Below, one piece after another: positions 695 to 16,690 of a stretch of DNA of 57,730 bases. Under the pieces are notes generated by a model that searched no databases, had not been told where the DNA came from, and saw nothing but the letters and a program-made list of their open reading frames with translations. The translations under genes were made by a program, and so were the position numbers. Position 1 is the first letter of the stretch; every line of letters starts with the position of its first letter. Location of the stretch: the NCBI GenBank assembly GCA_947471985.1, contig CANIZL010000036.1, forward strand, positions 1 through 57,730. The letters run 5' to 3'. The stretch comes from Verrucomicrobiota bacterium. Its GTDB lineage: Bacteria; Verrucomicrobiota; Verrucomicrobiia; Limisphaerales; UBA9464.

Positions 695-3600
695 TCACGC
701 CCATTGCGCGCACAGCAGCGTTGCTTGGGCCAGGACGGTTTGTACGGCTTCTTCCTGGAGGTCGGGCGGGTAGCCGTATTTGCTCAGGATGCGCTTCACG
801 AGGATTTTGATCTTGGCCCGGGCACTTTCGCGGAGGGTCCAGTCGATGGTCACGCTTTGGCGAACCTTGGTGATTAGTTCCGCGGCGATGACTTTCAATT
901 TGGCGTCGCCCATGGCCACGACGGCGGATTGGTTGGCCGCGAGGGCGTCGTAGAAGGCGATCTCGTCGTCGGTCAGGCCCAGGTCCTGGCCGCGCTTGGT
1001 GGCGGCATCGAGTTCCTTGGCCAGTCGGATCAGTTCCTCGATGACTTCCATCGTCGAGATGGCGCGGTTGTGGTAGGCGTTGAGGGCCTTTTTCAGCTTC
1101 TCACTGAAGACCTGACTTTGTACGAGGTTGCGCCGGGATCGGATTTTGAGTTCGTCTTTGAGCAGCTTTTCCAACAGCTCGGCGGCGACGTTCTTGTGCT
1201 TGAGACCCCGCACCTCGGCGAGAAAGCGGTCGTCGAGAATGCTGATGTCGGGCGCCTTCAGGCCGGCGGCGGTGAAGACGTCGATCACCTGGCCCTCGGT
1301 ACTTATGGCCTTGCTCACCAGCTGGCGGATGGCGGCGTCAATCTGGTCGGGGGTCCGCTGATTGGTGCCGCTCCGCTTGTTCAAGGCCGCTTGCAGCGCT
1401 TGAAAAAACGCGACGTCGTCCCGGATCTCCGTGGCCGCGTCGCTGGCGGCACACAGGGCGAAGGCGTGGGAAAGCTCCGTCACGACCTGCACCCAGCGAT
1501 GTTTGCCGTCCTCCTGCTCGAGAATGTGTTCCTGGCCGGCCGGAATGAGGGCGAGGCGTTCGGCCGGCTTGCCGGTGGTCCACTTGTCCCAATTGAAGCC
1601 GTGCAGCATGTCGCAGGCGATCCCGTGCTTTTCCAGCATCACGGCGATGGCTTTTGCGGTGTCGAAGGTTGGATTGCCCCGGCCACCGCTCTCGGTATAG
1701 GTAACGAGTGCCTTCTTGAGCTGATCGGCCAGGCCGAGGTAATCCACCACCAGACCGCCGGGCTTGTCCCGGAAGACCCGGTTCACCCGGGCGATGGCTT
1801 GCATGAGGCCGTGGCCCTGCATCGGCTTGTCGGCATACATGGTGTGCAGGCAAGGGGCGTCGAAGCCGGTCAGCCACATGTCGCGCACGATCACGATGCG
1901 GAACGGGTCCTTGGCGTCCTTGAACCGGTTCGCCAGCTGGCGGCGCTTGTCCTTGCTGCGGATGTGGGGCTGCCAGTCGGGCCCGTCGTCGGCGCTGCCG
2001 GTCATCACGACTTTCACCACGCAGGTTTTGCCCTTCCCCTCCTTCGCCAAGGCTTTGGAGGGCAGGTCGTCTTCGTCATCGGGAGCGCTGGCCCAGTCGG
2101 GGCGCAGCTGGATGAGCGCGTTGTGGAGGTCCACGGCGATGCGGCGGCTCATGCAGACGATCATGGCCTTGCCGTCCATCGCCTCCCAGCGCTTCTCGAA
2201 ATGCTCCACCAGGTCGGCGGCCACGAGCGCGATGCGTTTTGGATCGCCCACCAACGCCTCCACCGCGGCCCACTTCGACTTGAGCTTCTCCTTTTTGGTT
2301 TGCTCCTCGCCCTCAGTGATTTCCTCAAATTCCGCGTCGATCTTCGGCAGTTCGGCGGCATTGAGGCTGAGTTTGGAAATCCGGCTCTCGTAATAGATCG
2401 GCACCGTGGCCTTGTCCGCGACGGCCCGCTGAATGTCGTAGATGGAAATGTAATCGCCGAAGACCGCCCGGGTGTTCGCGTCCGTCTTCTCGATGGGCGT
2501 GCCGGTGAAGCCGATGAAGGATGCGTACGGCAAGGCATTGCGCAGGTTGCTGGCGAAGCCGTAGGACATCTCGCCGGTCCTTTCATTCACCTTGCCGGCA
2601 AACCCGTACTGGCTGCGATGCGCCTCATCGGCGATCACGACAATGTTCTGCCGGGCGCTCAATTCGGGCATCGGTTCGCCCTTTTCCGGCATGAACTTCT
2701 GGATGGTGGTGAACACCACGCCGCCGCTCGCCCGGTTCAACAGCTGCCGGAGATCCTCCCGGTCCGCTGCCTGCACTGGTGCTTGCCCGAGGATGTCGGC
2801 GCAGCGCTGGAACTGGCCGAACAACTGGTCGTCGAGATCATTGCGGTCGGTCAGCACCACCAGCGTCGGGTTCGCCATCGCCGGATGCCGCACCACGCGG
2901 GCGGCGAAGAACAGCATCGAGTAGGATTTCCCGCTGCCTTGCGTGTGCCAGACCACGCCCACTCGGCGGTCACCGACCTTCCCGCCGTGCATCCGGTTGG
3001 CCCAGAAGGTTCCCTGACCATCCCGAACGTCCGGGCCGCCGCCCATCCCGCTGGCGCGCACGGTCTCCTCGACCGCCGCGTTCACGGCGTGGAACTGGTG
3101 GTAACCGGCGATGATCTTGTGCAGCGCGCCAGAGTCCGGGTCTTCCTCGAAAACGATGAAATGGTGCAGCAGGTCCAGGAACCGCTGTTGCTCGAACACC
3201 CCGCGCACCAGCACTTCCAGCTCCAGCGCCGTCTTTGGTGCATCGCCCTCGCCGTCGACTGTGCGCCAGACCTTGAACCACTCCTGGCTTGCGGTCACCG
3301 AACCCATGCGCGCCTCCAAACCATCGCTTACGACGAGCGCCGCGTTGTAATGCAGCAGCGAGGGAATCTCCGCCTTGTAGGTCTGCAGCTGCGCGTAGGC
3401 GTTCCAGATCTTGGCATCCTCATCCGCGGCGTTCTTCAGCTCGATCAGGCCCAGCGGCAGACCGTTGAGGAATACCACGATGTCCGGCCGCCGGTTGTGC
3501 TGACCCTCGACCACCGTGAACTGGTTCACCGCCAGCCAATCGTTGGCGGCAGGGTGGTGAAAATCCACCAACCGGGCATGATCCCCGGCAATACTACCGT

Positions 3601-3919
3601 CGGGCCGGGGATACTCCACCGGGACGCCATCCCGGAGCATCCGGTGAAAGGCGCGATTGGTCTGGGTGAGAGACGGCATTCCCACCCGGAGGACCTTGCG
3701 CAACGCCTCGTCCCGGGCCTCCTCGGGCATGCTCGGGTTCAGCCGCCGGATGGCCTCGCGCAGGCGCCCCGCCAGCACCACCTCGCCAAACGAATCCCTC
3801 CCGCCATCGCGGGACGCCGGCTCATTCGGCCCGAAATCCGGACCGTGCCCGACGGCATACCCCAGCTCGCCGAACCATTCGAGGGCGGCGTCTTCGACGA
3901 TGGATTCGTTGAGGTTCAT
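695..3919 (-). CDS. hsdR: type I restriction enzyme, R (motor/nuclease) subunit HsdR
   Basis: The 1074-residue protein is full length for HsdR. It cleaves unmodified DNA after ATP-driven translocation, in complex with HsdM and HsdS. The N-terminal nuclease domain carries D145 (RPDIVVF) and E160-x-K162 (GLIELK), the PD-(D/E)xK set. The helicase motor follows: Walker A TQGSGKS at about 326-332, DEAH at 431-434, [17 protein letters not shown] and [10 protein letters not shown] motifs. The C-terminal third is the helical region that binds the methylase. It is the last gene of the minus-strand operon, starting 6 bases after the ariB-like stop and far from hsdS. The first 60 or so codons are present a second time at 6190-6377. 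All visible catalytic motifs look intact. Confidence 0.95.
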
Positions 3920-3925
3920 GTCCCG

Positions 3926-4807
3926 CTATACTGACAAGACAACTGATTGCGGAGGTGTCGGATACCGGCTTATCAGATTGCGAGTTTCACTTCTGACCGC
4001 GCGCTTGAGAAGTTTGTGGTCATTAGATTGGCAATGCCTCCAAACCATGTCGGCAAGTATCTGTGTGAGGGCGTCGTTTGGAATGGAAGTATTGCTTCCA
4101 CTTTCTTTCGCTGCAGCACGCAAGAATATGCGTCTCAGAACGCCTAACACTAGGTGCCCCTTAAGCAGATGGGTGATGCACCGGTCGCGCAAAAAGCCTT
4201 TTACCTCAGTTTGAGCTGCTTCTACCGCCTTTGGATCGAGTTGACCCTCTACAACTGCGACCAATGCCGCAACCTTCTCCGGATCAACGTCCGGTCGGGA
4301 GTGGTCCAAGAGCAAGTTCTCAATCTTATCAGGCAACACTGCGGGAGGCGATGGGGAACGACGGGCCGCGATGTCTAGCGCGACCGCGTGGAGTAACGCC
4401 TGCTTAAGGTGCTGTGTCACCCGCTGCATTTCAGCTCCGACCAAATCCTTGTTTTCGCCACACCGTGCATGGCGTAAGCAGGCGCGATTCACTGATACAT
4501 GCTCCCACAAGAAATTCTCAAACGAGTATCGCGGCAAAACCAGAACACAGCGGTGCGGGTTCGGTGACGGCTTTAGGATTTCGTAATCCCCGTCCAGGAT
4601 GACGACATACGGATGATCGTGGTCTACCAAAGCCTGCACGAGAGCCCTTGCGTTTTCAGCCCCGTGGAATGCTTCAATGCGACAGGGAATCCCGTCGGTG
4701 ATAGGCTCGTAGAAGAAAATGTCAGTGGGACCCTCTACCCAAATGGTCGGGACTTGGTGAAAGCGCCACTTCACGGCAAGGCCTTTCGGAGTTCTTGTGA
4801 ATGGCAT
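3926..4807 (-). CDS. ariB: DUF4435 TOPRIM-like protein, PARIS AriB-like effector
   Basis: This 293-residue protein has the DUF4435 layout: an N-terminal WVEGPTD motif with E25, then VVILDGDYE with D72 and D74. These supply the acidic residues of a TOPRIM nuclease fold. RYSFENFLWEH is also typical of DUF4435. In the PARIS defence system a DUF4435 protein (AriB) is held by an AAA ATPase (AriA) and released as a toxic nuclease when phage anti-restriction proteins are sensed. Here the ATPase gene ends 2 bases upstream and hsdR starts 6 bases downstream, so all three are probably co-translated. The gene is clearly less GC-rich than hsdR, which suggests separate acquisition. Assignment rests on family pairing and motifs; the symbol is by analogy. 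Confidence 0.65.
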   Translation of the reverse strand: MPFTRTPKGLAVKWRFHQVPTIWVEGPTDIFFYEPITDGIPCRIEAFHGAENARALVQALVDHDHPYVVILDGDYEILKPSPNPHRCVLVLPRYSFENFLWEHVSVNRACLRHARCGENKDLVGAEMQRVTQHLKQALLHAVALDIAARRSPSPPAVLPDKIENLLLDHSRPDVDPEKVAALVAVVEGQLDPKAVEAAQTEVKGFLRDRCITHLLKGHLVLGVLRRIFLRAAAKESGSNTSIPNDALTQILADMVWRHCQSNDHKLLKRAVRSETRNLISRYPTPPQSVVLSV

Positions 4808-4809
4808 AA

Positions 4810-6099
4810 TCAGAGTCGCGCTAGGTCGATCACCCTTTCACCAAAACCGGCCGCAATATCCGGAGAATGCGTGGCAACAATGAATTGGCATCGGCTTGCC
4901 AGCTTTGTCAGTGATCCAAGAAGCTTCTCTTGCCAGTTCACGTGTAGCGACAATTCGGGCTCGTCGGCAACGTAGACAATCGAAGAAAGCCCGGAGAGAA
5001 GCGCCTGCGTTAAGAGGATTAGGATTTGTTTCTCACCTGAGGAAAGATGCCTCCATTCGAGCGGTCCCCGTTGTTTCCTTTCTGGGGTGATGATAATTTC
5101 GCCCCTGTCCGAAACGGCTACCGATTTTTCATTTAGAAATGAGTTTACTATCGATTCGTATTCATGTAGTGCTGCAAACAATTGCCCGCGTTTTGTTTCG
5201 AGCTCTTGAGCGAACTCAACGATTGAACGTGTTCGAGCTATTAGAGGGATGATAAGTATGGTCTCAAAATCAAACCCCTTCGGTCCCGATTTCAGCTTTG
5301 CGATTGCAGCCTTAGCAGCATCGAAGTGTTCAGTGATTCGCCCTTCCATCCGCGCGTCGACAAGCCCAACGTCGCGAAATGCCTGCAAGAGTTTTTGCTT
5401 GTCAGATTCTGATGGTGGAACAAGAGATGCTAGATTATTGAGTACCCGATCATGGTGCTTGTCAAACAGAATATTTTCTAGTGCGTGCCGTTGGAATCCC
5501 TTGCGAAGCTCCGATAGCTCTGCGTTCAACGACAATCGATACCGCTGAAGTTCTTCAACCAAAGACGCCAAACATTCGTCGACCGATTCGAGCGGCCTCC
5601 GGTGCAGGGGTCTGCGGGCCACCTCTTCCTCTTCAGCGATTGGTAGTCGCCGGCTAACGGGCAACCACACAGCGGGAACAAGTCCCCGGAGTTGCTTTTG
5701 AAGGTCTTGAATATCAAACCGGAAGTGTCGTCGAAGAACTTCGGAAGGCACGTCGACAAGCGCACGCCCTTCTGAGAAGTGCTGAAATTGCACCAACGGA
5801 ATTTTAAACGTTTGCTCACCAACGCTGATTTGAAGATCCTCGGGTGACTGAATGACTGAGACGGTTTCAGTTTCGCCGCCCTCAAATGATTTTAGGCCGA
5901 TCAAGACTTCGGAGAACTCGGTTTTGCAAAGCCGGGCGATGTTGGCCGTCAAAGTATCGTAGAGGATGTTGATTAATGTCGTCTTGCCCGATGCGTTTGG
6001 CCCAATTAACACGTTCACGTCTTTGAAGAACGTGATCTTGTAGTTTTTGTATCCCCAGAGTTGTTTTACAGAATAGTTATCTATGTAGTATTTACTCAT
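4810..6099 (-). CDS. ariA: AAA_15/AAA_21-type ATPase, PARIS AriA-like sensor
   Basis: The 429-residue protein is an SMC/ABC-like ATPase. It shows Walker A GPNASGKT at 33-40, a signature LSSGEKQ at about 352-358, Walker B ending in DEPE at about 379-382 and the H-loop ATHSPD near the C-terminus. Between Walker A and the signature lies a long helical insert, as in single-chain defence ATPases. The start (MSKYYIDN) is chosen because its ATG overlaps the stop of the upstream remnant (ATGA); a longer reading adds 14 unlikely residues. In PARIS, AriA forms a scaffold that sequesters AriB. The length is close to known AriA proteins. Composition is AT-richer than the hsd genes. An unrelated OLD-like pairing cannot be fully excluded. 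Confidence 0.65.
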   Translation of the reverse strand: MSKYYIDNYSVKQLWGYKNYKITFFKDVNVLIGPNASGKTTLINILYDTLTANIARLCKTEFSEVLIGLKSFEGGETETVSVIQSPEDLQISVGEQTFKIPLVQFQHFSEGRALVDVPSEVLRRHFRFDIQDLQKQLRGLVPAVWLPVSRRLPIAEEEEVARRPLHRRPLESVDECLASLVEELQRYRLSLNAELSELRKGFQRHALENILFDKHHDRVLNNLASLVPPSESDKQKLLQAFRDVGLVDARMEGRITEHFDAAKAAIAKLKSGPKGFDFETILIIPLIARTRSIVEFAQELETKRGQLFAALHEYESIVNSFLNEKSVAVSDRGEIIITPERKQRGPLEWRHLSSGEKQILILLTQALLSGLSSIVYVADEPELSLHVNWQEKLLGSLTKLASRCQFIVATHSPDIAAGFGERVIDLARL

Positions 6100-6377
6100 A
6101 ATTTTCTGGTGCTTGTTTGGCGCGGGGAGATCTCCCCGCAAAGCAGCTTTGGCAGCAGCGTGTCGCGGAGGGAAGCGAGGGCGCGGGATGGAATGGCCGG
6201 ATTCAGTCGCTGGATGGACTCGCGCAGGCGCCCCGCCAGCACCACCTCGCCAAACGAATCCCGCTCCGCCGCCGGCTCATTTGGCCCGAAATCCGGCCCG
6301 TGCCCGACCGCATACCCCAGCTCCCCGAACCATTCGAGGGCGGCGTCTTCGACGATGGATTCGTTCAGCGTGGACAT
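6096..6377 (-). pseudogene. chimeric remnant: hsdR 5' end fused to hsdS 3' end
   Basis: The 93-codon frame has two sources. Residues 1 to about 61 ([18 protein letters not shown] through RLNP) are almost identical to the start of the intact HsdR at 3919, except for a few changed or missing residues around position 36. Residues from about 65 (LASLRDTLLPKLLCGE) match the extreme C-terminus of the intact HsdS (LAALRDTLLPKLLSGE). The fused frame stays open and its stop overlaps the ariA-like start (ATGA). It begins 12 bases after the DUF3037 stop. It cannot have HsdR or HsdS function. It may serve only to keep ribosomes moving through the operon. It is best read as a recombination scar. Confidence 0.85.
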
Positions 6378-6389
6378 GCAGGCATCGCA

Positions 6390-7253
6390 TTAAGGCAGCT
6401 TGGCTGCCTCAGCGAAGACCGCTTCAGCTTGAATAGTATTCTGAATGTTCACCAAGCGGGACATACCGCCCAGCAACCTCAGCGTCTTCTCGACTTCCGT
6501 CTCGCTCTGTCGTTCTGGCGTCTCATCGACGATCAGCACCGCTTGATCAGAGGTCACCACTTTCCCATTGATCAGGCTTTCCAGAGTCCACGCCATGGCA
6601 TCACGACTCTTTTGGATGCGCCCCTTGGTCTTCGGAATGGAGAACCGCTGAAACAGGCGCTCAATCGTTCCATTCGCCAGCGCATGGCTGAAGACATACT
6701 CTTCCTCCACACCCCCGCGAGTGTATTTCACCGGGTAGCGGTCTTTGAAATGAGGGTGTGCTTTCAACTGCGTCTTCATCAGCAATTCATCACAGCGCGC
6801 TTCAAAACTGCGGTCCTTGGGTTCTTCGGCAGAGGCTGCCTCCAGCACCAGTTGCGCGAAAAGCTGATTCGCCACGGCGGGCAAATCCTCTTCGCCGACT
6901 TGGTCCATCACGGCTCCGGATTCCAAGAGCATGAAATTCCCCTGAGCAGTCTCACGCAGCGCATCCATGAAGGCTGGCGATGACGCCGGGATCAGCTCAC
7001 CACCGCGCAGGGGCAAGATAGAGTTTTCTGACAACGCATCCCGCCAATAGCGCACCCATTGGCGGTAGGCGTTGTGTGAGGTCACCCAGTCCGGGATGGA
7101 ACGCCCATCCACATCACCGGGACGGCCCAGATTCTCTGCGAGGAAACGCGCCTCGATTCCCAAAGGCGACCAGATCACCACGCCAATGTTGCGCGGCTCA
7201 AACCGGTGCATGTCCGGGATGTATTTCGCGAGAAAGTATTTGGTCGTTTTCAT
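6390..7253 (-). CDS. DUF3037 domain protein paired with a HipA-like kinase
   Basis: This 287-residue protein opens with KYFLAKYIPDMHRFEPRNIG, the N-terminal pattern of DUF3037 (a short Tyr/Pro motif followed by EPxNVGV). The rest is mixed helix and strand with no catalytic motif I can name. The start MKTTKYFL is chosen because its ATG overlaps the stop of the kinase gene (ATGA); an in-frame ATG five codons earlier is possible. DUF3037 genes commonly lie next to HipA-like kinase genes, so the two are probably a functional pair. Whether it is an antitoxin, substrate or adaptor is not known. The pair forms the first cargo module between hsdS and hsdR. Confidence 0.7.
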   Translation of the reverse strand: MKTTKYFLAKYIPDMHRFEPRNIGVVIWSPLGIEARFLAENLGRPGDVDGRSIPDWVTSHNAYRQWVRYWRDALSENSILPLRGGELIPASSPAFMDALRETAQGNFMLLESGAVMDQVGEEDLPAVANQLFAQLVLEAASAEEPKDRSFEARCDELLMKTQLKAHPHFKDRYPVKYTRGGVEEEYVFSHALANGTIERLFQRFSIPKTKGRIQKSRDAMAWTLESLINGKVVTSDQAVLIVDETPERQSETEVEKTLRLLGGMSRLVNIQNTIQAEAVFAEAAKLP

Positions 7254-8023
7254 AGTGGCAGACTCCATTGTGTAATGGCCTTAAACTCGGCCCGGTTATC
7301 ATTCACCAGCTTGCGGATATTATCGCGCCTTGCCTTCAAAAAGCCAGCGGCGGCATCGCCTTCAGCCGCACTCATGCCGTACGGCAAGGCATCGCGGCAG
7401 ACATCTTCTATGTAAAAGTTGGGCGTGGATTCGATGCGCTTCATCCAGTTTTCGAAGTGAACACCGCTGTTCACCGCATCCAGCAGGCAGTGACGATTCC
7501 GCCCAGACTCCAGCGGTTCACCGGTTTTCCAGGAAATGCCCAGAGTGTCCCTGTGCTCGGCCAACCTCTCCACGCCCTTGTTCTTGGCATAGCCAAACAA
7601 CGCGTGACCGTGATCAAACACACTCATGAGCGGCGGGGTCGCCAGCAAATCCAACGCAAGGTTCTTTGGATTGCGGTCGAGGTTCGCGATCCAAATGTCG
7701 AACAGCAGCACTCCCGCAGAAAGCGACGGCAGCAGGCGCACACAATCGGATGGCTTCACCGGAGGCAGATCATTTCCCGTGAGATTGAAGTTCAGCGATG
7801 CAAACCAAGCCTCTCCACCCTCTTCAGCAACCACGCCCAGTGGCGGCACCGGCAGACGAAGGAACCGTCCCAGCTCGCCGCAGATCATCTCGTTCGGGAT
7901 GCAGTAAGGCGCGTTGTCCACGTTCTTCTTGCCAACCGCCGCCACGGTTAGATGCATGCCGCCAGCAATCCCGATGTTCAGCGGGTCTTTGACGCTCAGA
8001 AGGCGATAGTTGATGACTGGCAT
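7250..8023 (-). CDS. HipA-like Ser/Thr kinase (HipA_2 family)
   Basis: The 257-residue protein is shorter than classical HipA (about 440) and fits the compact HipA-like kinase family. Visible features are an N-terminal lobe with NEMICGELGRFLRLPVPP (the NE and LGLPVP pattern of HipA kinases), the catalytic loop IANLDRNPKN (D, R and N as in HipA DRHxxN) and the DHGHALFGY metal-binding motif. HipA kinases phosphorylate proteins such as aminoacyl-tRNA synthetases; the target here is unknown. It starts 11 bases after the hsdS stop and overlaps the DUF3037 gene by 4 bases. No HipB-type DNA-binding antitoxin is nearby, so DUF3037 may be the partner. Kinase assignment is solid, biological role is inference. 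Confidence 0.75.
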   Translation of the reverse strand: MPVINYRLLSVKDPLNIGIAGGMHLTVAAVGKKNVDNAPYCIPNEMICGELGRFLRLPVPPLGVVAEEGGEAWFASLNFNLTGNDLPPVKPSDCVRLLPSLSAGVLLFDIWIANLDRNPKNLALDLLATPPLMSVFDHGHALFGYAKNKGVERLAEHRDTLGISWKTGEPLESGRNRHCLLDAVNSGVHFENWMKRIESTPNFYIEDVCRDALPYGMSAAEGDAAAGFLKARRDNIRKLVNDNRAEFKAITQWSLPL

Positions 8024-8034
8024 TGCAGGTGATT

Positions 8035-9354
8035 TTAGAGGGTTGATTTGCTCTCTGCGAGTCCGATTCCATCCCCCACGCTCAACTCGCCGCTCAGCAG
8101 TTTCGGCAGCAGCGTGTCGCGTAGGGCAGCGAGAGTGTGGGATTGGGTCTCGTTTTTTGAAATGCGGGCTAGTAGGGGACGGACTGCGGATCCAAACGAT
8201 TGCTGAAGTCTGAATGAAGGCGTGATGATCTTTAGTTCTCCAAGTCGGTTGCGGCTAAGTTCTGTTTGCCCTGTCGAGCCTTCACCGAGTGCCTCAATCT
8301 CGGTTTCACGGCCAGTAAGATTGATGCCGAGGAACAGCGGATCTGTATCCAGTCCTGCACGAACAATTGTGACGTGAGAATCTACAATCGCCGGCTCGGG
8401 TAGATAAAACAGTTGGGCAACACGGCCAAGCGTTCCCATTCCCGTGGAATTGACTAAAATATCGTGAATCTGGAGGGCGCGGTCATTAATTGGTTTTACG
8501 GTGGAGTCGTGCCGGCGGGATTTGGTAAAATCCACTCGGTGATCACGAATACATTTCTGGTTCAGGACACACACACCACCTTGTTCGAGGTAAGAAGGTC
8601 CGATGCCTCGACTCAAATATCGTGTTAGGCTGCTGAGCGAACGTACGGTCCACCCTTTCGGGATATGTCCGGCCTCGGAGTCTTGGAACGAATCGGGAAA
8701 GAGGCTGGCGGTGGCGGCGTCCATGCCCACGGGCTGGCGGCCGTCGATTTTGGCGCGGACGAGGTCGAGATCCACGAACCAGCTCTGAAACAGCGCCCGC
8801 GCCATTGCTTCTAGCGTCGCGTTCATCCGCCGGTTTAACTCGATCTTGTCGTCCAGCTCTTTAAGCAACTCGACGATGCTCAATCGCGTCTTGGTCATCG
8901 GAGGCACCGGGTAATCGAGAAAGTCGTCCCGACTGAGTGCGACAACTGCACTTCCTGTCGCTCGCCCGTCGCAGTAGTCCCTGTATTGGGGCGTGCGGAG
9001 AATCCAGTAGAGGAAGTTGATCGCCTTCGGATTGTTTTCACGAAACTCCAGTTTTACCGTGTCCTGTGTAAGCCGCCCGGAAGGAACTGAAGGCGGCACT
9101 CGCGCGACCGAGCCAATCATCTTTCCGTCCTTTGTTGCGCCCTTAAGTGAAACAAAAAGATCGCCGGGAAATAGCATGAGCTTTTGAGGACACTCCCCGC
9201 CGTACGTCTTGAAGTCGCCTTCACGGAATCCTCCTCCGGGGCGGATTGAACCGAGACCGAGCAAGGCAGGCCCCGGCTTACCGACAAGATTGCCCTTGTA
9301 GGTGATGCCTCGCTGCAAGGTGACATAGTCACCAACCGTGCCCTTATCCGCCAT
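8035..9354 (-). CDS. hsdS: type I restriction-modification specificity subunit HsdS
   Basis: The 439-residue protein has the usual HsdS layout. A first target-recognition domain (about residues 5-150) is followed by a conserved spacer helix (LLKELDDKIELNRRMNATLE, ending near FQSWFVDLD). A second recognition domain (about 225-380) precedes a second helix with LAALRDTLLPKLLSGE. The two helices act as a ruler that sets the gap between the two DNA half-sites. The start codon lies inside the short upstream frame at 9344-9466 (11-base overlap). The final residues are mirrored in the remnant at 6096-6377, showing that the 3' end of an hsdS has been copied or recombined downstream. Confidence 0.93.
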   Translation of the reverse strand: MADKGTVGDYVTLQRGITYKGNLVGKPGPALLGLGSIRPGGGFREGDFKTYGGECPQKLMLFPGDLFVSLKGATKDGKMIGSVARVPPSVPSGRLTQDTVKLEFRENNPKAINFLYWILRTPQYRDYCDGRATGSAVVALSRDDFLDYPVPPMTKTRLSIVELLKELDDKIELNRRMNATLEAMARALFQSWFVDLDLVRAKIDGRQPVGMDAATASLFPDSFQDSEAGHIPKGWTVRSLSSLTRYLSRGIGPSYLEQGGVCVLNQKCIRDHRVDFTKSRRHDSTVKPINDRALQIHDILVNSTGMGTLGRVAQLFYLPEPAIVDSHVTIVRAGLDTDPLFLGINLTGRETEIEALGEGSTGQTELSRNRLGELKIITPSFRLQQSFGSAVRPLLARISKNETQSHTLAALRDTLLPKLLSGELSVGDGIGLAESKSTL

Positions 9355-9466
9355 AACCCAACTCTCTCAGGTTTGCCTTGCTTTGCTTCTCCAGTTTCGC
9401 GGACTCGGCGAATCCGCCTTCGCCAACGCTACGGCGGGCAGGCTGGGCGGTGGTCAATGCACTCAT
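9344..9466 (-). CDS. 40-codon ORF carrying a second HsdM C-terminus
   Basis: This frame starts with an ATG overlapping the hsdM stop (ATGA) and ends with a TAA inside the hsdS start region. Its second half, [18 protein letters not shown], is a clear relative of the true HsdM C-terminus [18 protein letters not shown]. Its first half ([18 protein letters not shown]) comes from a GC-rich stretch reading GCCTGCCCGCCGTAGCGTTG, which looks like a dispersed intergenic repeat. The simplest reading is that the hsdM 3' end was duplicated or exchanged, leaving the older end fused to a repeat. It may still matter for translational coupling of hsdM to hsdS. Function as a protein is doubtful. Confidence 0.7.
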
Positions 9467-11121
9467 TTGTATCCGAGTCCTTTCAGGTTGGCGCGAATCG
9501 CGGATTCGAGTTTGGCCGACTCCGCAAACTGACCTTGCAGTTCGGCGACGAGGCGCGGCATCTTTTCTTCAAACGGGTCGCCGTCGTCTTCGACTTCCTC
9601 TGCGCCGACGTAACGTCCCGGCGTGAGGACGTGGCCGTGCGCGGCGATTTCGGCGTTGGTGGCCGATTTGCAGAAGCCGGCCACATCGGCGTAGGCGGCT
9701 GTGGGGTTCTTGGTTCGTGGTTCTTTGTTCTTGGTTGGAGGGTCAGAGAGCCAGGCGTGGTAGGTGGAGGTGATTTTCTCGATGTCCGCGTCGGTCAGCT
9801 CGCGGTGAACGCGGTCGACCAGGGTGCCGAGTTTGCGGGCGTCGATGAAGAGGGTTTGCCGGCGGCGGTCGCGGAAGCCGCGTTTGGCGTCCGCGTTCTT
9901 GTTCTTCGCGAGGAACCACAGGCAGACGGGTATCTGAGTGCTGTAAAAGAGCTGGCCGGGGAGGGCGACCATGCAGTCCACGAGGTCGGTCGCGATAATG
10001 GCGCGGCGGATTTCGCCTTCGCCGGATTGATTGGAGGACATGGCGCCGTTGGCCGACACGAATCCCGCCACGCCATTGGGCGCCAAGTGGTGGATGATGT
10101 GCTGGATCCAGCCGAAATTGGCGTTCCCCGTTGGCGGGAGACCGTAGCGCCAGCGGACGTCGTCGTCCTTGCGGAACCAGTCACTGACATTGAAGGGGAA
10201 GTTGGCCAGGATGTAATCGGCCTTCAGATCCGGGTGGAGATCCTCGCGGAAGGTGTCGGCCGCGTGGGTACCGAGATCGCCTTCGATGCCCCGGATGGCG
10301 AGGTTCATGAGGGCGAGCTTCCAGGTGGTGGGATTCGATTCCTGCCCGAAAATGGCGATATCGCCGACCTTGCCCCCGTGGGCCTCGATGAACTTCTCGC
10401 TCTGCACGAAAAGCCCGCCCGACCCGTTGCAGCAATCGTAAATGCGCCCCTTGTAGGGCGCGATCATGAACACGAGCAGCTTGTCGATGCACTGCGGGGT
10501 GTAGAACTCGCCCCCGCGCTTACCCTCCGCGCTGGCGAAGCGTCCGAGAAAGTATTCGTAAACCCGGCCGAGGATGTCCTTGGAGCGGTGGCTGGCCGCC
10601 CCGGTGCCTTCACCCGGTTTTTCCCCGCCGCCGCGTCGGGCGGGATCCTCCGACCGGCCGACCAGTTCGATGGTGCCGATGACGTCGATGAGTTCCCCCA
10701 GCCGATGCTTGTCGAGGGCCGGGCGGGCGTAGTCCTTGGGGAGGACGCCTTTGAGGCGCGGGTTGTCGCGCTCGATGGCGACCATGGCGTCGTCGACGAG
10801 TTTGCCGATGGTGGGCTGCTTGGCCTGGCCCTGCAGATAGGACCAACGGGCCGCCTTGGGCACCCAGAAGACGTTTTCGGCCTTGTATTCGTCCTGATCC
10901 TCTGCATTGGCGCCGGCGTAGTCGCCCTTGCCGGCCAGCAGCTTGGCGCGGTGTTCCTCGAAGGTGTCGGAGATGTACTTGAGGAAGATGAGCCCCAGGA
11001 CGACGTGCTTGTACTCCGCCGCGTCCATGTTGTTGCGGAGCTTGTCGGCGGTCAGCCAGAGCTTGGCCTCGAAGCCCAGGTTGGCAGAGGAATCAGCTTT
11101 TGTTGGTGCGATCTTGGCCAT
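9463..11121 (-). CDS. hsdM: type I restriction-modification methyltransferase subunit HsdM, with altered catalytic motifs
   Basis: The 552-residue protein matches HsdM over its length. It has the N-terminal helical domain ([20 protein letters not shown]), the GGEFYTPQ motif before the catalytic core and [20 protein letters not shown] after it. It should transfer methyl groups from S-adenosylmethionine to adenine N6. Two key motifs differ from the usual form. Motif I reads DCCNGSGG at 229-236 instead of DPCCGSGG, and motif IV reads NFPF at 307-310 instead of NPPF. About residues 459-475 contain a [12 protein letters not shown] insert that looks repeat-derived. NFPF is reminiscent of the NLPY motif of KsgA enzymes, so activity is not excluded. 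It is the first gene of the nine-frame operon. Confidence 0.92.
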
Positions 11122-11545: not shown

Positions 11546-14500
11546 TCAAGGCTTGAACAACCGATAGAACTGCCGAGCATCGTCTGGCGATACCGTCAGC
11601 TTGTACTGACCGCCTTCTAGAAGTGGAATGCTAAGCACCGGCTGCCAGTTCGCTGTCGGCAGTGTGGAAGAAAACTGTAGGGAGTAATCGGTCGCGCTGA
11701 CAGGCCATAAGATGACGGCGTTCGCCGAGCCTTGGACGCGTTTAAGCACCAGCCTTGGCACTTGTTTTATCACCCCGAACAAAGTGACGGTGTGACCACC
11801 GCCTGCAGCGATTGCTGTGATTCCGTTCTGTGCGGCAATAGGCACGCTCGATTGGCCTTCGTAATCGTCCCCCCAAGCCAACACCGAACCGTCGGCCTTT
11901 AAGGCCACCGTATGCTCGCCCCCCGCAGCAATGGCTGTGATCCCGCTATGCGCTGCGAAAGGCACCGTCGTTTGGCCTGAACTGTTATCGCCCCATGCCA
12001 CCACCGAGCCGTCTGACTTCAACGCAACGACGTGGTCTGCTCCCGCAGCGATGGCCGTGACACCGCTTTGGGCAGTGAACGGCACATCGGTCTGGCCGTA
12101 GTGGTTGTCCCCCCAGGCGATCACCGAACCACCCGATTTCAAGGCGACCGTATGATCGCTGTAGCAGCCCGTAGCGATAGCTATCACCCCGCTCTGGGCC
12201 GCGAGGGGCACCGTGGTCTGGCCGGAAGCATTGGAGCCCCAAGCCAACACTGAGCCGTCGGTTTTCAAAGCCACCGTATGTAACCGTCCGGCGGCAACTG
12301 CCATGATACCGCGCTGGGCCACGAGAGGCACCGTCGTTTGGCCTGAACTGTTATCGCCCCATGCCACCACCGAGCCGTCTGACTTCAACGCAACGACGTG
12401 GTATGCTCCCGCAGCGATCGCTGTGACCCCATTCTGAGCGGTGACCGGCACAACGGTCTGCCCCGAGGCGTTGTCCCCCCAGGCGATCACCGAACCACCC
12501 GATTTCAAGGCGACCGTGTTATGTGCACCTGCCGCAATCGCTGTGACCCCACTTCCTGCCGCGACCGGAACATAAGTTTGCCCGTAGCGATCACCTCCCC
12601 ACGCCATCACTTGGCCGACGAGGGGCGGAGTCACGGTCAACGCTGCCTGCTTGCTGATCGCCTTGCCCGCAGTGTTAATCACAACCACGTCATAATTGCC
12701 GACATGTTGGGGATCCGCCAACGGCAGGGTATAGGTGGCCTTGTCGGCTCCTGCGATGGCGCCCCCATCTTTGCGCCATTGATAGTTCAATGGATAGCCG
12801 GTCGCCTCCACGACGAAGCGGGCGGGCTGTCCTGTGCGCACGGTTTGGCTCACGGGCTGCCAGATGATATTCGGCGCGGTCGTCTTGCCCAACGCCAAGG
12901 TGTGAGAGCCCCCTGCGGCGACAGCCGTCACTCCGCTCAGTGCCAAGGCGGGGACCTCGGTCTGACCATACTCATCATTTCCCCACGCCACTACTGAGCC
13001 ATCGCTCTTCAAGGCGACGGTGTGAAATGCTCCGGCCGCGATTGCCACTACTCCGGTCTGGGCTGCGTCAGGCACAGAGTCTTGTCCATAGAAGTTGTTG
13101 CCCCACGCCACAACCGAGCCGTCGGCTTTCAACGCGACCGAATGGACTTCGCCAGCGGCGATTGCCACCACTCCGGTCTGGGCCGCCAAGGGGACAACGG
13201 TCTGTCCTTGAAAGTCTTGGCCCCACGCCACGACCGAGCCGTCGGCCTTCAACGCCACGGTATGATACTTGCCGGCGGCGACTGCGACCACTCCGACCTG
13301 GGCCGCGAGGGGTACGGTTGTCTGTCCGAAGAAGTTGTTGCCCCACGCCACGACCGAGCCATCAGTCTTCAACGCGACGGTGTGATAGTATCCTGCGGCA
13401 ACCGACGCGACTCCGTGTTGTGCGGCGGCTGGCACGATGGATTGTCCATAATTCATTTCAGACTCTGGGTTCGCCAGGCTTGGGTAGAGCCTGACGTCAA
13501 ATGTTCCCGCGCCCCACGTCACCACCGAACCATCTGCCTTCAACGCCACGGAAGACGCCTCGCCAGCGGCAATCGCACTCACTCCGCTCTGTGCCGCAAG
13601 CGGCACGTCAGTTTGGCCATAACCATTGCTCCCCCACGCCACCACGGAACCATCGGTTCTCAAGGCGAGTGAGTGGCCATGATGCCGAGTTACTCCGGCT
13701 GCGCGAACGACACCTCCGGCTGCGATGGCTATTACTCCGTTCTGCGCGGCGACGGGCAGGTCCGTCTGGCCGTAGAAATCGGCTCCCCATGCCACCAAGG
13801 AAAATGCAGGGATGGCCGCCTTCACCGTCAGTATCGCCGGTGCCGCGTTGGTCACGCTCCCGAGGGGGTTACTCACAATGACAGAGTAGGCGCCGGCCTG
13901 GTCGGCGGCCGCAGCATCCAGTTCATAGGTGGCATTTGTCGCTCCGGGGATGTCGTCCCCGTTCTTGCGCCACTTGTAAGTGAGAAAGTGGCCTGTGGCC
14001 GTCACCGAGAAACGGACGCTCCGGCCCTCATTGACCGTTTGGCTCAGCGGTTGCGTGATTATGTCAGGCGCAGTTGGGACAACAAGAGCCAAAGTCTGGC
14101 TATAACCAGCGGCAACCGCAGCCACCCCGCTTCGCGCTTCAAATGGTCTATCGTCGTAACTCGAGGGGTCTGCCCCATTGAATGATACTGCATCCCACGT
14201 CACCACCGTGCCGTCCATCTTCAATGCCACTGGGCTATGCAACCCCGCAGCGATTGCACTTACTCCACTCTGCGCTGCGACCGGCACCACTGGAACACTG
14301 CCCCAGCCAACCACCGAGCCATCAGCCTTTAGCGCCACGGTGTAATTCCCACCTGCTGCAATTGCGGTTACTCCGCTCTGCGCCGCGATGGGCACGTCTG
14401 CTTGTCCGAATTTGTTGTATCCCCATCCGATAACGGAGCCATCTGCTTTTAGGACCACAGTGTGTTGCTCTCCCGCTGCAACCGCCATCACTCCGCTTAG

Positions 14501-16159
14501 GGCTGCGATGGGCGTGGGATAGCCAGCATTGCCGGTTCCCCATGCCACCACCGAACCGTCTGTCTTTAGGGCCAGCGTTTTATCACCGCCTGCGGCAATT
14601 GCAGCAACCCCGCTCTTCGCCGCAAGCGGCACTGTCGATTGCCCGCGATCATTGAGCCCCCAAGCCACCACTGAACCATCACTCTTAAGAGCCACGCTAT
14701 GGTTATATCCTCCCGCGATTGCAGTCACCCCACTCCGAGCCGCAACGGGAACAGTAGTTTGTCCGTAATTAGTCGCTCCCCAAGCCACGACTGAACCATC
14801 GGTCTTCAAAGCCAAGCTGTGAAATGCTCCGGCCGCGATTGCCATGACTTCGCCCTGAGCGACCGCCGGCACTTCCGACTCTCCGTAGACGCCGGCGCCC
14901 CATGCCACTACAAAGCCGGAGAGCGCCGGGTTCACTGTGAGCACTGCTGGCGGAGTGCTGGTAACGCTCCCGAGGATGTTGCCCACCACCACGGTGTAGT
15001 TTCCTGCTTGGCCAGGCTGCACCGGGCCAAGATTCAGGAGTGTGTTGGTTGCCTTCGGAATTTCGACCCCATCCCTAAGCCATTGGTAGCTCAGAACGTA
15101 ACCGCTGGCCGCCACCGTGAGGCTTGCATTCTGCCCGACATGCAAGGACTGACTTACGGGCTGCTGGGTAATGTTGGGGGCGGTCGGCGTGACCAGCGCC
15201 AACGTATGGGTTCCTCCCGCCGCAACTGCCGCAACCTTGCCCAGCCCTTTGGGCTCCGTCGATTGCCCAGTGCTGTTTGCCCCCCACCCCACCACCGAAC
15301 CGTCGCTCTTCAAGGCTACCGCGTGGGTGGTCGCCGCCGAGATCGCAATCACTCCGCTCTGGGCGGCGGCAGGGACATTCGTGATGCCGTATATGTCGCC
15401 CCCCCACACCAAGACAGAGCCGTCGCTTTTTAGGGCCATGGTGTAAGCGTAGGCAGCAGCAATCGCCGTCACTTGGCTTTTAGCCGCGTCGGGCACAGTC
15501 GTTTGGCCGTGTTGGTTGTTCCCCCACGCCACCACGGAGCCGTCGCTTTTCAAGGCCACTGTGTGGGAGTATCCTGCGGCGATTGCGATCACCCCGCCCT
15601 TAGCCGCAAAGGGCACTGTGATTTGGCCATCAAAGTTGGCCCCCCAGCCCACCACCGAACCGCTGGATTTTAGTGCTACCGTGAAAAAGCCGCCTGCTGC
15701 AATCGCGGTGACGCCGCTTTGGGCGACGGCAGGCACATTTGTCTGGCCATTGCTATTGCGTCCCCAGGCCACCACGGAGCCGTTGGTCTTTAAGGCTACG
15801 GTGTGGCTCACGCCCGCTGCGATTGCCGTCACTCCGCTCTGCGCGGCTGCGGGGACGATGGATTGCCCGAAATCTGGCTCGATTCCCAGATTCGTGAGGC
15901 CCCCTCCCCACGCAATCACCGAACCATCGGTCTTTAGGGCCAAGCTATGGGTTTCGCCCGCAGCAACTGCCACCACTCCGCTCTGGGCGGTGACTGGCAC
16001 ATCGGTTTCGCCGTAATAGTCGCCTCCCCAACCGACAACCGACCCTGCGGCCGCGCCCAGAACGGTGTTGGCCCCAGCAAGACAAATCCATAATGCGGGC
16101 CAGACGACGCCCATAAGCGGTGAATGATGGGAGCGAAAGTAATTGAGTAGAATCCGCAT
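11546..16159 (-). CDS. giant secreted RCC1-repeat protein with Ig-like linkers
   Basis: The 1537-residue protein starts at MRILLNYF, followed by a hydrophobic signal-peptide segment ending near VLGAAAGS. The body is built from RCC1-type units with the consensus AIAAGxxHTVALKxDGSVVAWGxNxxGQTxVP. I count 28 AIAAG-type units in four sets of seven. The sets are separated by three Ig-like domains (each opening near QPVSQ or QPLSQ, with W in YxWxxxG, and ending in VTNxxPAxLTV). Seven units make one closed RCC1 propeller, so four propellers joined by Ig spacers are expected. The end (NAVILWPVSATDYSLQFS to RQFYRLFKP) is a small beta-rich domain seen on other secreted proteins in this window. A role in adhesion or surface binding is inference. 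An in-frame ATG ten codons upstream is an alternative start. Confidence 0.88.
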   Translation of the reverse strand: MRILLNYFRSHHSPLMGVVWPALWICLAGANTVLGAAAGSVVGWGGDYYGETDVPVTAQSGVVAVAAGETHSLALKTDGSVIAWGGGLTNLGIEPDFGQSIVPAAAQSGVTAIAAGVSHTVALKTNGSVVAWGRNSNGQTNVPAVAQSGVTAIAAGGFFTVALKSSGSVVGWGANFDGQITVPFAAKGGVIAIAAGYSHTVALKSDGSVVAWGNNQHGQTTVPDAAKSQVTAIAAAYAYTMALKSDGSVLVWGGDIYGITNVPAAAQSGVIAISAATTHAVALKSDGSVVGWGANSTGQSTEPKGLGKVAAVAAGGTHTLALVTPTAPNITQQPVSQSLHVGQNASLTVAASGYVLSYQWLRDGVEIPKATNTLLNLGPVQPGQAGNYTVVVGNILGSVTSTPPAVLTVNPALSGFVVAWGAGVYGESEVPAVAQGEVMAIAAGAFHSLALKTDGSVVAWGATNYGQTTVPVAARSGVTAIAGGYNHSVALKSDGSVVAWGLNDRGQSTVPLAAKSGVAAIAAGGDKTLALKTDGSVVAWGTGNAGYPTPIAALSGVMAVAAGEQHTVVLKADGSVIGWGYNKFGQADVPIAAQSGVTAIAAGGNYTVALKADGSVVGWGSVPVVPVAAQSGVSAIAAGLHSPVALKMDGTVVTWDAVSFNGADPSSYDDRPFEARSGVAAVAAGYSQTLALVVPTAPDIITQPLSQTVNEGRSVRFSVTATGHFLTYKWRKNGDDIPGATNATYELDAAAADQAGAYSVIVSNPLGSVTNAAPAILTVKAAIPAFSLVAWGADFYGQTDLPVAAQNGVIAIAAGGVVRAAGVTRHHGHSLALRTDGSVVAWGSNGYGQTDVPLAAQSGVSAIAAGEASSVALKADGSVVTWGAGTFDVRLYPSLANPESEMNYGQSIVPAAAQHGVASVAAGYYHTVALKTDGSVVAWGNNFFGQTTVPLAAQVGVVAVAAGKYHTVALKADGSVVAWGQDFQGQTVVPLAAQTGVVAIAAGEVHSVALKADGSVVAWGNNFYGQDSVPDAAQTGVVAIAAGAFHTVALKSDGSVVAWGNDEYGQTEVPALALSGVTAVAAGGSHTLALGKTTAPNIIWQPVSQTVRTGQPARFVVEATGYPLNYQWRKDGGAIAGADKATYTLPLADPQHVGNYDVVVINTAGKAISKQAALTVTPPLVGQVMAWGGDRYGQTYVPVAAGSGVTAIAAGAHNTVALKSGGSVIAWGDNASGQTVVPVTAQNGVTAIAAGAYHVVALKSDGSVVAWGDNSSGQTTVPLVAQRGIMAVAAGRLHTVALKTDGSVLAWGSNASGQTTVPLAAQSGVIAIATGCYSDHTVALKSGGSVIAWGDNHYGQTDVPFTAQSGVTAIAAGADHVVALKSDGSVVAWGDNSSGQTTVPFAAHSGITAIAAGGEHTVALKADGSVLAWGDDYEGQSSVPIAAQNGITAIAAGGGHTVTLFGVIKQVPRLVLKRVQGSANAVILWPVSATDYSLQFSSTLPTANWQPVLSIPLLEGGQYKLTVSPDDARQFYRLFKP

Positions 16160-16690
16160 GAGCGCTTTTGGTGGGAATTTGCTTTTCAATGCTCCGCGGA
16201 ATGGGAGATTTGCCTTCGCGGATTGGAATATTCTTGGTCAGGTTGCGGCGCTTGATCCGGTACAGCAAGGGCTTTCGAGGCTCTCTCCGTTCTCGACCCA
16301 ATGTGAGTGGTGGAGTGACAATAAAAGCGCGTAAGATGAGGGGCGATCCGAATTCAGCTGGGGGCGTGCGGCGGTAGGTGTAGCGCGAGGGCTTCGATGG
16401 GGTCCTGAAATATCCCCGGCTCCGCCTTCTCGGGTGCGTGGAGCGGGGCAATCAAAGGAGGCGATGCTGGCGGTCGTAGGCAGCTATCGATCTGCGTCGT
16501 ACGACGCAATTCCGCCCGCAAAGCTGGCCCCTCCACCGACCCTTTATCCCCATTTGAACCTGAGCCCTTCAGGCCTCGAAAACAGGCCAAATATTTGGCG
16601 ATTATTTGGTAATGCGCCCGAGTGCACCCCACTGCGCCAGAGTGCGCCCAGAAATCGGCGGTTTTCGCGATGGCGGCCCAAAACGCAAAT
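16160..16690. other. intergenic region between RCC1 gene and tRNA
   Basis: About 530 bases without a supported gene. It should hold the leftward promoter of the RCC1-repeat gene. The notable element is the perfect 16-base palindrome at 16493-16508. A pair of near-repeats (GAGTGCACCCCA and GAGTGCGCCCAG) lies at about 16619-16653. I see nothing else. Confidence 0.5.
16493..16508. promoter_or_regulatory. perfect 16-bp palindrome, possible operator
   Basis: The sequence TGCGTCGTACGACGCA is a perfect inverted repeat with no spacer. It lies in a gene-free stretch, about 330 bases upstream of the RCC1 gene start. Such dyads often bind dimeric regulators, but nothing in the sequence shows which. Chance occurrence is possible. 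Confidence 0.3.

Follow-up and report, generated by a model that had tools for sequence, protein, structure and literature searches.

A probable recombination scar between stacked defense cargo slots in a type I restriction operon of Verrucomicrobiota

A 93-codon frame in the window (the whole stretch of DNA analyzed here, 57,730 nt of a Verrucomicrobiota contig) is very probably a recombination scar between two defense cargo slots that were stacked stepwise in one type I restriction operon. The frame, at 6096-6377 on the reverse strand, runs from ATG to TGA and joins the 5' end of hsdR (R') to the 3' end of hsdS (S'). Defense genes cluster, and to our knowledge it is mostly unclear how single modules join such clusters without harming their neighbors.

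The hsd operon of the window and its chimeric frame

All genes of the operon lie on the reverse strand, in the order hsdM - hsdS - [HipA-like, partner] - R'S' - [ariA, ariB] - hsdR (Table 1). Full-length, co-directional hsdM, hsdS, and hsdR identify a type I restriction-modification (RM) operon, whose activity is predicted from these genes. The second slot holds PARIS, recognized by PADLOC as an AriA ATPase gene adjoining an AriB DUF4435 gene, with DUF4435 itself at 22.7 bits, under the Pfam cut-off of 27. In the accessible text of the literature searched, the trigger of PARIS (AriAB) is a phage anti-restriction protein. The operon carries unrelated defense genes between hsdS and hsdR on the same strand.

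This order agrees with the first-pass annotation, which read the locus as hsdS - HipA/DUF3037 - hsdR'-hsdS' - ariAB - hsdR, but the labels of the first slot fared less well. HipA is borderline (HipA_2, PF20613, 26.9 bits against a cut-off of 27). The partner gene, there called DUF3037, had no Pfam match at E 0.1, and PF11236 had zero matches anywhere in the window's genome. Upstream of hsdM, at 11546-16189 (-), lies a 1547-aa frame with repeated 'GSVVAWG...' units that appears RCC1-like by eye.

Table 1. Features of the hsd operon in the window.
Feature	Coordinates	Strand	Evidence and remarks
hsdM	9463..11121	(-)	Opens the hsd operon; Pfam N6_Mtase 4e-98, HsdM_N
hsdS, full length	8035..9354	(-)	Pfam Methylase_S 2.6e-6; PADLOC Specificity_I 9e-103
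S-box (hsdS 3' end)	about 8077-8148	(-)	Term coined here
HipA-like kinase, slot 1 cargo	7250..8023	(-)	Pfam HipA_2 3.6e-6; PADLOC PDC-M03A 1.7e-7
Partner gene, slot 1 cargo	6390..7268	(-)	45% identical homolog directly before G054 hsdR
R' (hsdR 5' end, codons 1-62)	6190..6377	(-)	165/179 nt identical to resident hsdR; HSDR_N
S' (hsdS 3' end, in frame with R')	6096..6189	(-)	48/58 nt identical to resident hsdS over 6132-6189
ariA (PARIS ATPase), slot 2 cargo	4810..6099	(-)	PADLOC AriA 5e-39; AAA_21 1.8e-24
ariB (PARIS effector), slot 2 cargo	3926..4807	(-)	PADLOC AriB 3.5e-7
hsdR, full length, 1074 aa	695..3919	(-)	HSDR_N 2.6e-45; T1RH-like_C 9e-127
R-box (first about 75-190 nt of hsdR)	within 695..3919, 5' end	(-)	Term coined here

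At the nucleotide level, positions 6368-6190 align to hsdR 3913-3726 (92% identity over ungapped columns, with two small gaps) and positions 6189-6132 align to hsdS 8143-8086 (83%). The two blocks abut with a gap of 0, and the stop codon of the frame overlaps the ariA start as ATGA. In a whole-genome search, the scar peptide gave E values of 2e-32 for the resident hsdR and 0.002 for the end of the resident hsdS. In the reverse search of the hsdS-hsdR interval, the resident HsdR found the scar at 5e-31 and HsdS at 2e-5. Consistent with these matches, Pfam HSDR_N covers residues 4-74 and PADLOC Specificity_I about residues 63-87, the latter with the last part of those profiles. The likeness of the frame to both genes is not due to chance. 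An in-frame fusion of an hsdR 5' end to an hsdS 3' end, as first proposed from the sequence, is thus borne out by the alignment, with its directly abutting breakpoints, and by the reciprocal matches.

Cargo arrays in related genomes

We searched the scar peptide against 293 genomes of the order, mostly many-contig drafts and including the window's own (an assembly of 180 contigs). It matched in 78 of them at E 0.001. On a number of contigs, two or three short hsdR-like frames shared a strand, at spacings of typically 1-2.5 kb; these contigs, plus others with a full hsdR, were retrieved and mapped. The resulting loci extend from a plain single slot to an array of about five (Table 2). Cargo over the arrays includes PARIS, CBASS, pAgo-SIR2, TIR, Schlafen, GmrSD, AbiEi/ii, AbiJ, HipA, Fic, and RhuM. 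Names come from Pfam searches of 40 proteins from array loci, except that RhuM (G005, G196, G155, and L057) and the AAA pair of G155 were named by blastp likeness to proteins of G228. The 237-aa partner in the AAA_21-like pair had no Pfam match.

Table 2. Gene order in representative hsd loci (cargo in brackets).
Locus	Arrangement	Remarks
G005	hsdM-hsdS-[ariA, ariB]-R'-[RhuM]-hsdR	Two-slot array
G195	hsdM-hsdS-[pAgo, SIR2]-R'-[TIR, Schlafen]-hsdR	
G116	hsdM-hsdS-[DUF6119]-R'-[HNH, DUF2326]-hsdR	
G196	hsdM-hsdS-[139 aa]-S'-[SDH protease]-R'-[RhuM]-hsdR	
G060	hsdM-hsdS-[208 aa]-S'-[SMODS/AGS_C CBASS]-S'-[fused AAA/DUF4435]-R'-[several genes]-R'S'-[HipA]-hsdR	About five slots
G155	hsdM-hsdS-[318 aa, AbiJ]-R'-[deaminase]-R'S'-[AAA_21-like pair, two RhuM-like genes]-hsdR	
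L057	hsdS-[RhuM]-hsdR	Plain single slot

Orphan hsd pieces lay between hsdS and hsdR in 11 of 32 loci (the window included) in which a single contig held hsdS together with 300 or more hsdR residues. This sample is non-random, favoring multi-match contigs and adding most full-length matches among the matches listed, with ten full-length ones left out. Stacking of cargo slots in the hsd operon is supported by these loci and extends further than the first-pass annotation had proposed; the relatives it predicted, with one slot (for example L057) or several and with partial hsdR and hsdS copies between cargos, do exist. The evidence for stacking is a comparison of distinct loci.

Several mapped loci show further features. 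A second hsdR family, with the N-terminus HAYTEDQLVEQPAIGLFAELGW, has several R' copies per locus in L127 (G119:C118), L128 (G097:C97), and L053 (G234:C324). It is about 31-32% identical to the window hsdR in L127 and L128 and has its own R'S' joints, clear in L128. In-frame, repeat-like short inserts (..LTRPLPRGEE.. or ..LTPTLCQGERES..) lie inside hsdR' copies at L045 +8400, L048 -3042, L049 +3817, and L042 -2611. In L047 (3274-3644; G042:C52), an hsdR 5' piece adjoins residue 727 onward, as if the middle had been lost, and the break is near the R'S' joint position. A similar piece in L105 (6282-6563, reverse orientation; G508:C90) adjoins hsdR residues 1050-1074. Downstream of the full hsdR in L103 (11269-13350; G304:C100) are frames of 117 and 434 aa, equal in size to the HipB/HipA pair in L041, plus a 19-codon hsdR 5' piece; from this locus, stacking may extend beyond hsdR.

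Reading frames, joints, and sources of the orphan ends

The short frame could instead be a functional small gene, its translated HsdR N-terminal peptide acting as a translational coupler between modules or joining the restriction complex as partner or decoy. We regard this reading as unlikely, although it is compatible with a scar origin and several features favor it. The R' frames are mostly open, with 1 stop in 28 over 35 codons. At 0.38, their per-site nonsynonymous/synonymous ratio does not clearly exceed the value of 0.27 for intact hsdR (p 0.07 by permutation, with 28 R' used out of 34 and 17 hsdR out of 19, the others dropped for indels or strong divergence), but a low ratio may have been inherited from intact parents. 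R' frames overlap their neighbors by ATGA at 14 of 33 starts and 13 of 33 stops.

Clear chimeras are also in frame more often than chance would predict: seven of nine (the window, L037, L042, L046, L050, and two in L128; binomial 0.008), or five of six when shared joints are merged (binomial 0.018). These counts leave aside possible cases in L127 and L053, an eroded one in L082, and L098, which was found by a pattern demanding an in-frame joint. Against a functional small gene, the chimeras of L070 and L078 are out of frame, S' pieces also occur alone, and R' end points vary from about codon 19 to 90 with differing tails.

A second recurrent arrangement, without S', comes closest to a conserved gene. 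Nine R' in eight genomes have a similar short tail and precede rhuM-like genes, eight of the nine with ATGA; the arrangement could represent either a scar of older date or a translated leader that has been conserved. By eye, the tail itself looks like a piece of rhuM. This one tail type aside, we saw no small gene with the same ends and context across genomes and none conserved outside such loci, the outcome that would have spoken against stacking. A stand-alone conserved gene is unsupported since the ends vary, and a translated scar is possible. Collectively, these features of the frames lend modest support to scars serving as translated links between modules.

One joint recurs among the chimeras. 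In five genomes (the window, G228, G268, G155, and L098), hsdR NPAIP is followed directly by hsdS SR.LA.LRDTLLPKL. This joint precedes four cargo types: ariAB, an AAA_21 gene with its partner (G228 and G155, which share 53% and 38% identity in the two genes), GmrSD, and a Schlafen-like gene. In G155 it is now frameshifted. A scan of an 84,980-species collection, from which near relatives of the window were possibly left out, found the in-frame pattern on three contigs, all from MAGs, matching G228, G268, and L098.

A joint position shared by five genomes, with four types of cargo following it, is what might be seen if a site-specific recombinase loaded cassettes at hsd ends and R'S' acted like an attachment site, as in integrons. 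We consider this very unlikely. Other joints (G282, G060, and G114) differ in position and sequence, and end points vary, so that a constant boundary site is not apparent beyond the one recurrent joint. Tyrosine recombinase (PF00589) matched on one of eight array contigs and serine recombinase (PF00239) on none, with neither on the window contig, although a recombinase could act in trans. The sole match (G196:C354:10507-11019) is on the opposite strand, upstream of the hsd array. A recombinase encoded at the locus was set aside because seven of the eight contigs had no match. As for microhomology, the NPAIP/SR joint has little by eye. Two clear joints in L128 lie at 7 and 8 bp common to hsdR and hsdS; among possible joints between these stretches, with present-day hsdR and hsdS standing in for the parents, 0.1% have at least 7 bp and 0.02% at least 8 bp.

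RM loci often decay and duplicate, and several hsdR genes here appear frame-broken. The pieces might thus be remnants of hsd loci that duplicated and decayed in the usual way, with no connection to the loading of cargo, a reading to which we give equally little credence. Searching the intervals of the 32 loci with HsdR, HsdS, and HsdM yielded 17 R' (within HsdR query residues 1-142) and 6 S' (about the last 50 HsdS residues), all in operon orientation, and no HsdM-derived pieces. Among the S' counted, that of L085 is weak (1e-4) and did not reappear in later mapping. Excluded from the count were a weak match of L048 to hsdR residues 241-312 (3e-5); matches at interval edges to the resident hsdR start, the hsdS end, or alternate-frame ORFs taken as the locus's "own" HsdS; a match lying within the resident hsdS of L127; and a match of 20 residues in L128, where the 1100-aa query ORF is no genuine hsdS. 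Such a bias toward hsdR 5' and hsdS 3' ends, in a single orientation, is not what random decay would be expected to give.

Relationships among the R' argue in the same direction. Twelve R' come from loci that retain an hsdR 5' end. For none of them was this hsdR the closest (rank 2-18 of 18), and for nine the closest was the hsdR of L058, a consensus-like sequence. The R' therefore do not resemble recent duplicates of the hsdR in their locus. Judged from these sequences, they may have come from donors at other hsd loci, or the start of the resident hsdR may have been replaced afterward; local duplication of the resident hsdR is unsupported for the 12. An assembly artifact, conceivable for so fragmented a draft genome, is extremely unlikely, as R' and the resident hsdR differ at 14 of 179 sites and the pattern occurs in many separate genomes; a copy of the hsdR 5' end is also present in a Deinococcus plasmid record that is complete.

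That record belongs to a wider survey. Across the phylum, the R-box matched in 37 of 387 genomes, two of which (the window's genome and G042) are of the order. Five of the other 35 (G377, G437, G304, G508, and G526) had a short-frame match, a candidate orphan copy, and G377 is a clear array. A plasmid search with the hsdR N-terminus matched 421 places across 415 records, which leaves no more than six records with a second place. Deinococcus grandis plasmid pDEGR-2 (L136) carries an R' at 8051-8317 that covers residues 2-90 and shares 91% identity with the hsdR of its own locus. It sits in the hsdS-hsdR interval along with several unnamed cargo genes, and its frame is annotated as a hypothetical protein. 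The pattern is thus not confined to one phylum. At 91% identity, this R' would also fit local duplication.

Stepwise loading and its relation to known systems

Both cargo modules of the window have a counterpart at another hsd locus. The single other ariB homolog at E 1e-8 in the 293 genomes (50%, beside a 76% ariA homolog) is in slot 1 of the G005 hsd array, where ariAB directly follows hsdS. The G005 hsdS-ariA boundary (AAAATTATGAGTAAGTACTACAT) matches the S'-ariA boundary of the window (AAAATTATGAGTAAATACTACAT). The partner gene likewise has a single other homolog at E 1e-10, in G054, where it follows a HipA-like gene (53% to that of the window) and directly precedes an hsdR that is 40% identical to the window hsdR; no hsdS was recognized in G054. 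An upstream 469-aa frame in G054 looks DNA methyltransferase-like by eye.

Among 14 hsdR genes, synonymous-codon identity at about codons 1-20 and 11-30 was 0.82 and 0.75, the top of 101 codon windows (median 0.57). In hsdS it was 0.82 at the 3' end and higher, 0.90, in the central conserved region. Raised synonymous identity at hsd ends fits recombination there, and at the hsdR start it may alternatively reflect translation-start constraints. The use of hsd ends as homology arms, part of the original proposal, would accordingly be a tentative reading of the raised synonymous conservation at the hsdR 5' end.

We infer a mechanism that combines homologous recombination with a microhomology join. 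Loci of the form hsdS-cargo-hsdR have closely similar hsd ends in common. An incoming locus recombining at both ends would replace the cargo. If one end paired by homology and the other joined at a short microhomology in the hsdR 5' or hsdS 3' end, cargo would be added, and a leftover R', S', or both would stay behind as a scar. Many R' have no recognizable S' after them. Repeated additions would yield a stack, and an existing R'S' joint could spread by ordinary homologous recombination. In-frame joints and ATGA overlaps would let translation of the operon continue through the scar. A route of DNA uptake and selection for coupling would presumably complete the process.

More tentatively, type I RM operons may be integrase-free defense cassette platforms. 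S'-cargo-R' units would then move from one locus to another, and even from phylum to phylum, through RecA-type recombination at hsd ends, R'S' would be a portable, in-frame translated linker, and a restriction operon would grow an ordered immune array. We see this broader picture as possible, somewhat short of probable.

In defense islands and hotspots, different defense modules lie at one place between conserved flanking genes. Here, the flanks are two RM gene ends, the modules are co-directional within an operon, and truncated hsd ends mark the boundaries. Integron cassette arrays are ordered, co-directional modules with a short recurrent boundary, whereas the boundaries here are gene fragments with varying end points, and most array contigs lack the tyrosine recombinase match. 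In homology-facilitated illegitimate recombination during natural transformation, one homologous anchor and one microhomology join add foreign DNA; here, such events would recur at one operon and build a defense array. The phrase does not occur in the 12 open-access papers listed by the search concerned.

Single modules embedded in type I RM loci include the Rlo "R-linked ORFs" (among them RloF) of Campylobacter, PrrC, TgvAB of V. cholerae, and DarTG2 in the RptR island (PMC4619093, PMC12707154, PMC11411939, and PMC12255303). The hsdS-hsdR gap has already been suggested as a potential recombination hotspot (PMC12255303); PMC9577141 concerns a laboratory construct. Like the modules described here, these are defense cargo inside a type I RM operon. 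In contrast, the accessible text of these reports describes one module per operon, without hsdR' or hsdS' scars, several slots, or R'S' chimeras. The accessible text of the open-access literature searched likewise holds no report of hsdR/hsdS scars or multi-slot stacks. Within that literature, the first-pass remark that no description was known stands as regards the scars; it fails for the slot, since genes between hsdS and hsdR have long been known. Embedded defense genes are known; the evidence seen here for stepwise loading is unusual.

The scars seem to preserve single loading events at base resolution in one operon, and they make the idea of an hsdS-hsdR hotspot a testable mechanism. They account for puzzling short HSDR_N frames in annotation. 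Orphan hsdR 5' and hsdS 3' ends also provide a sequence signature for finding unknown defense modules.
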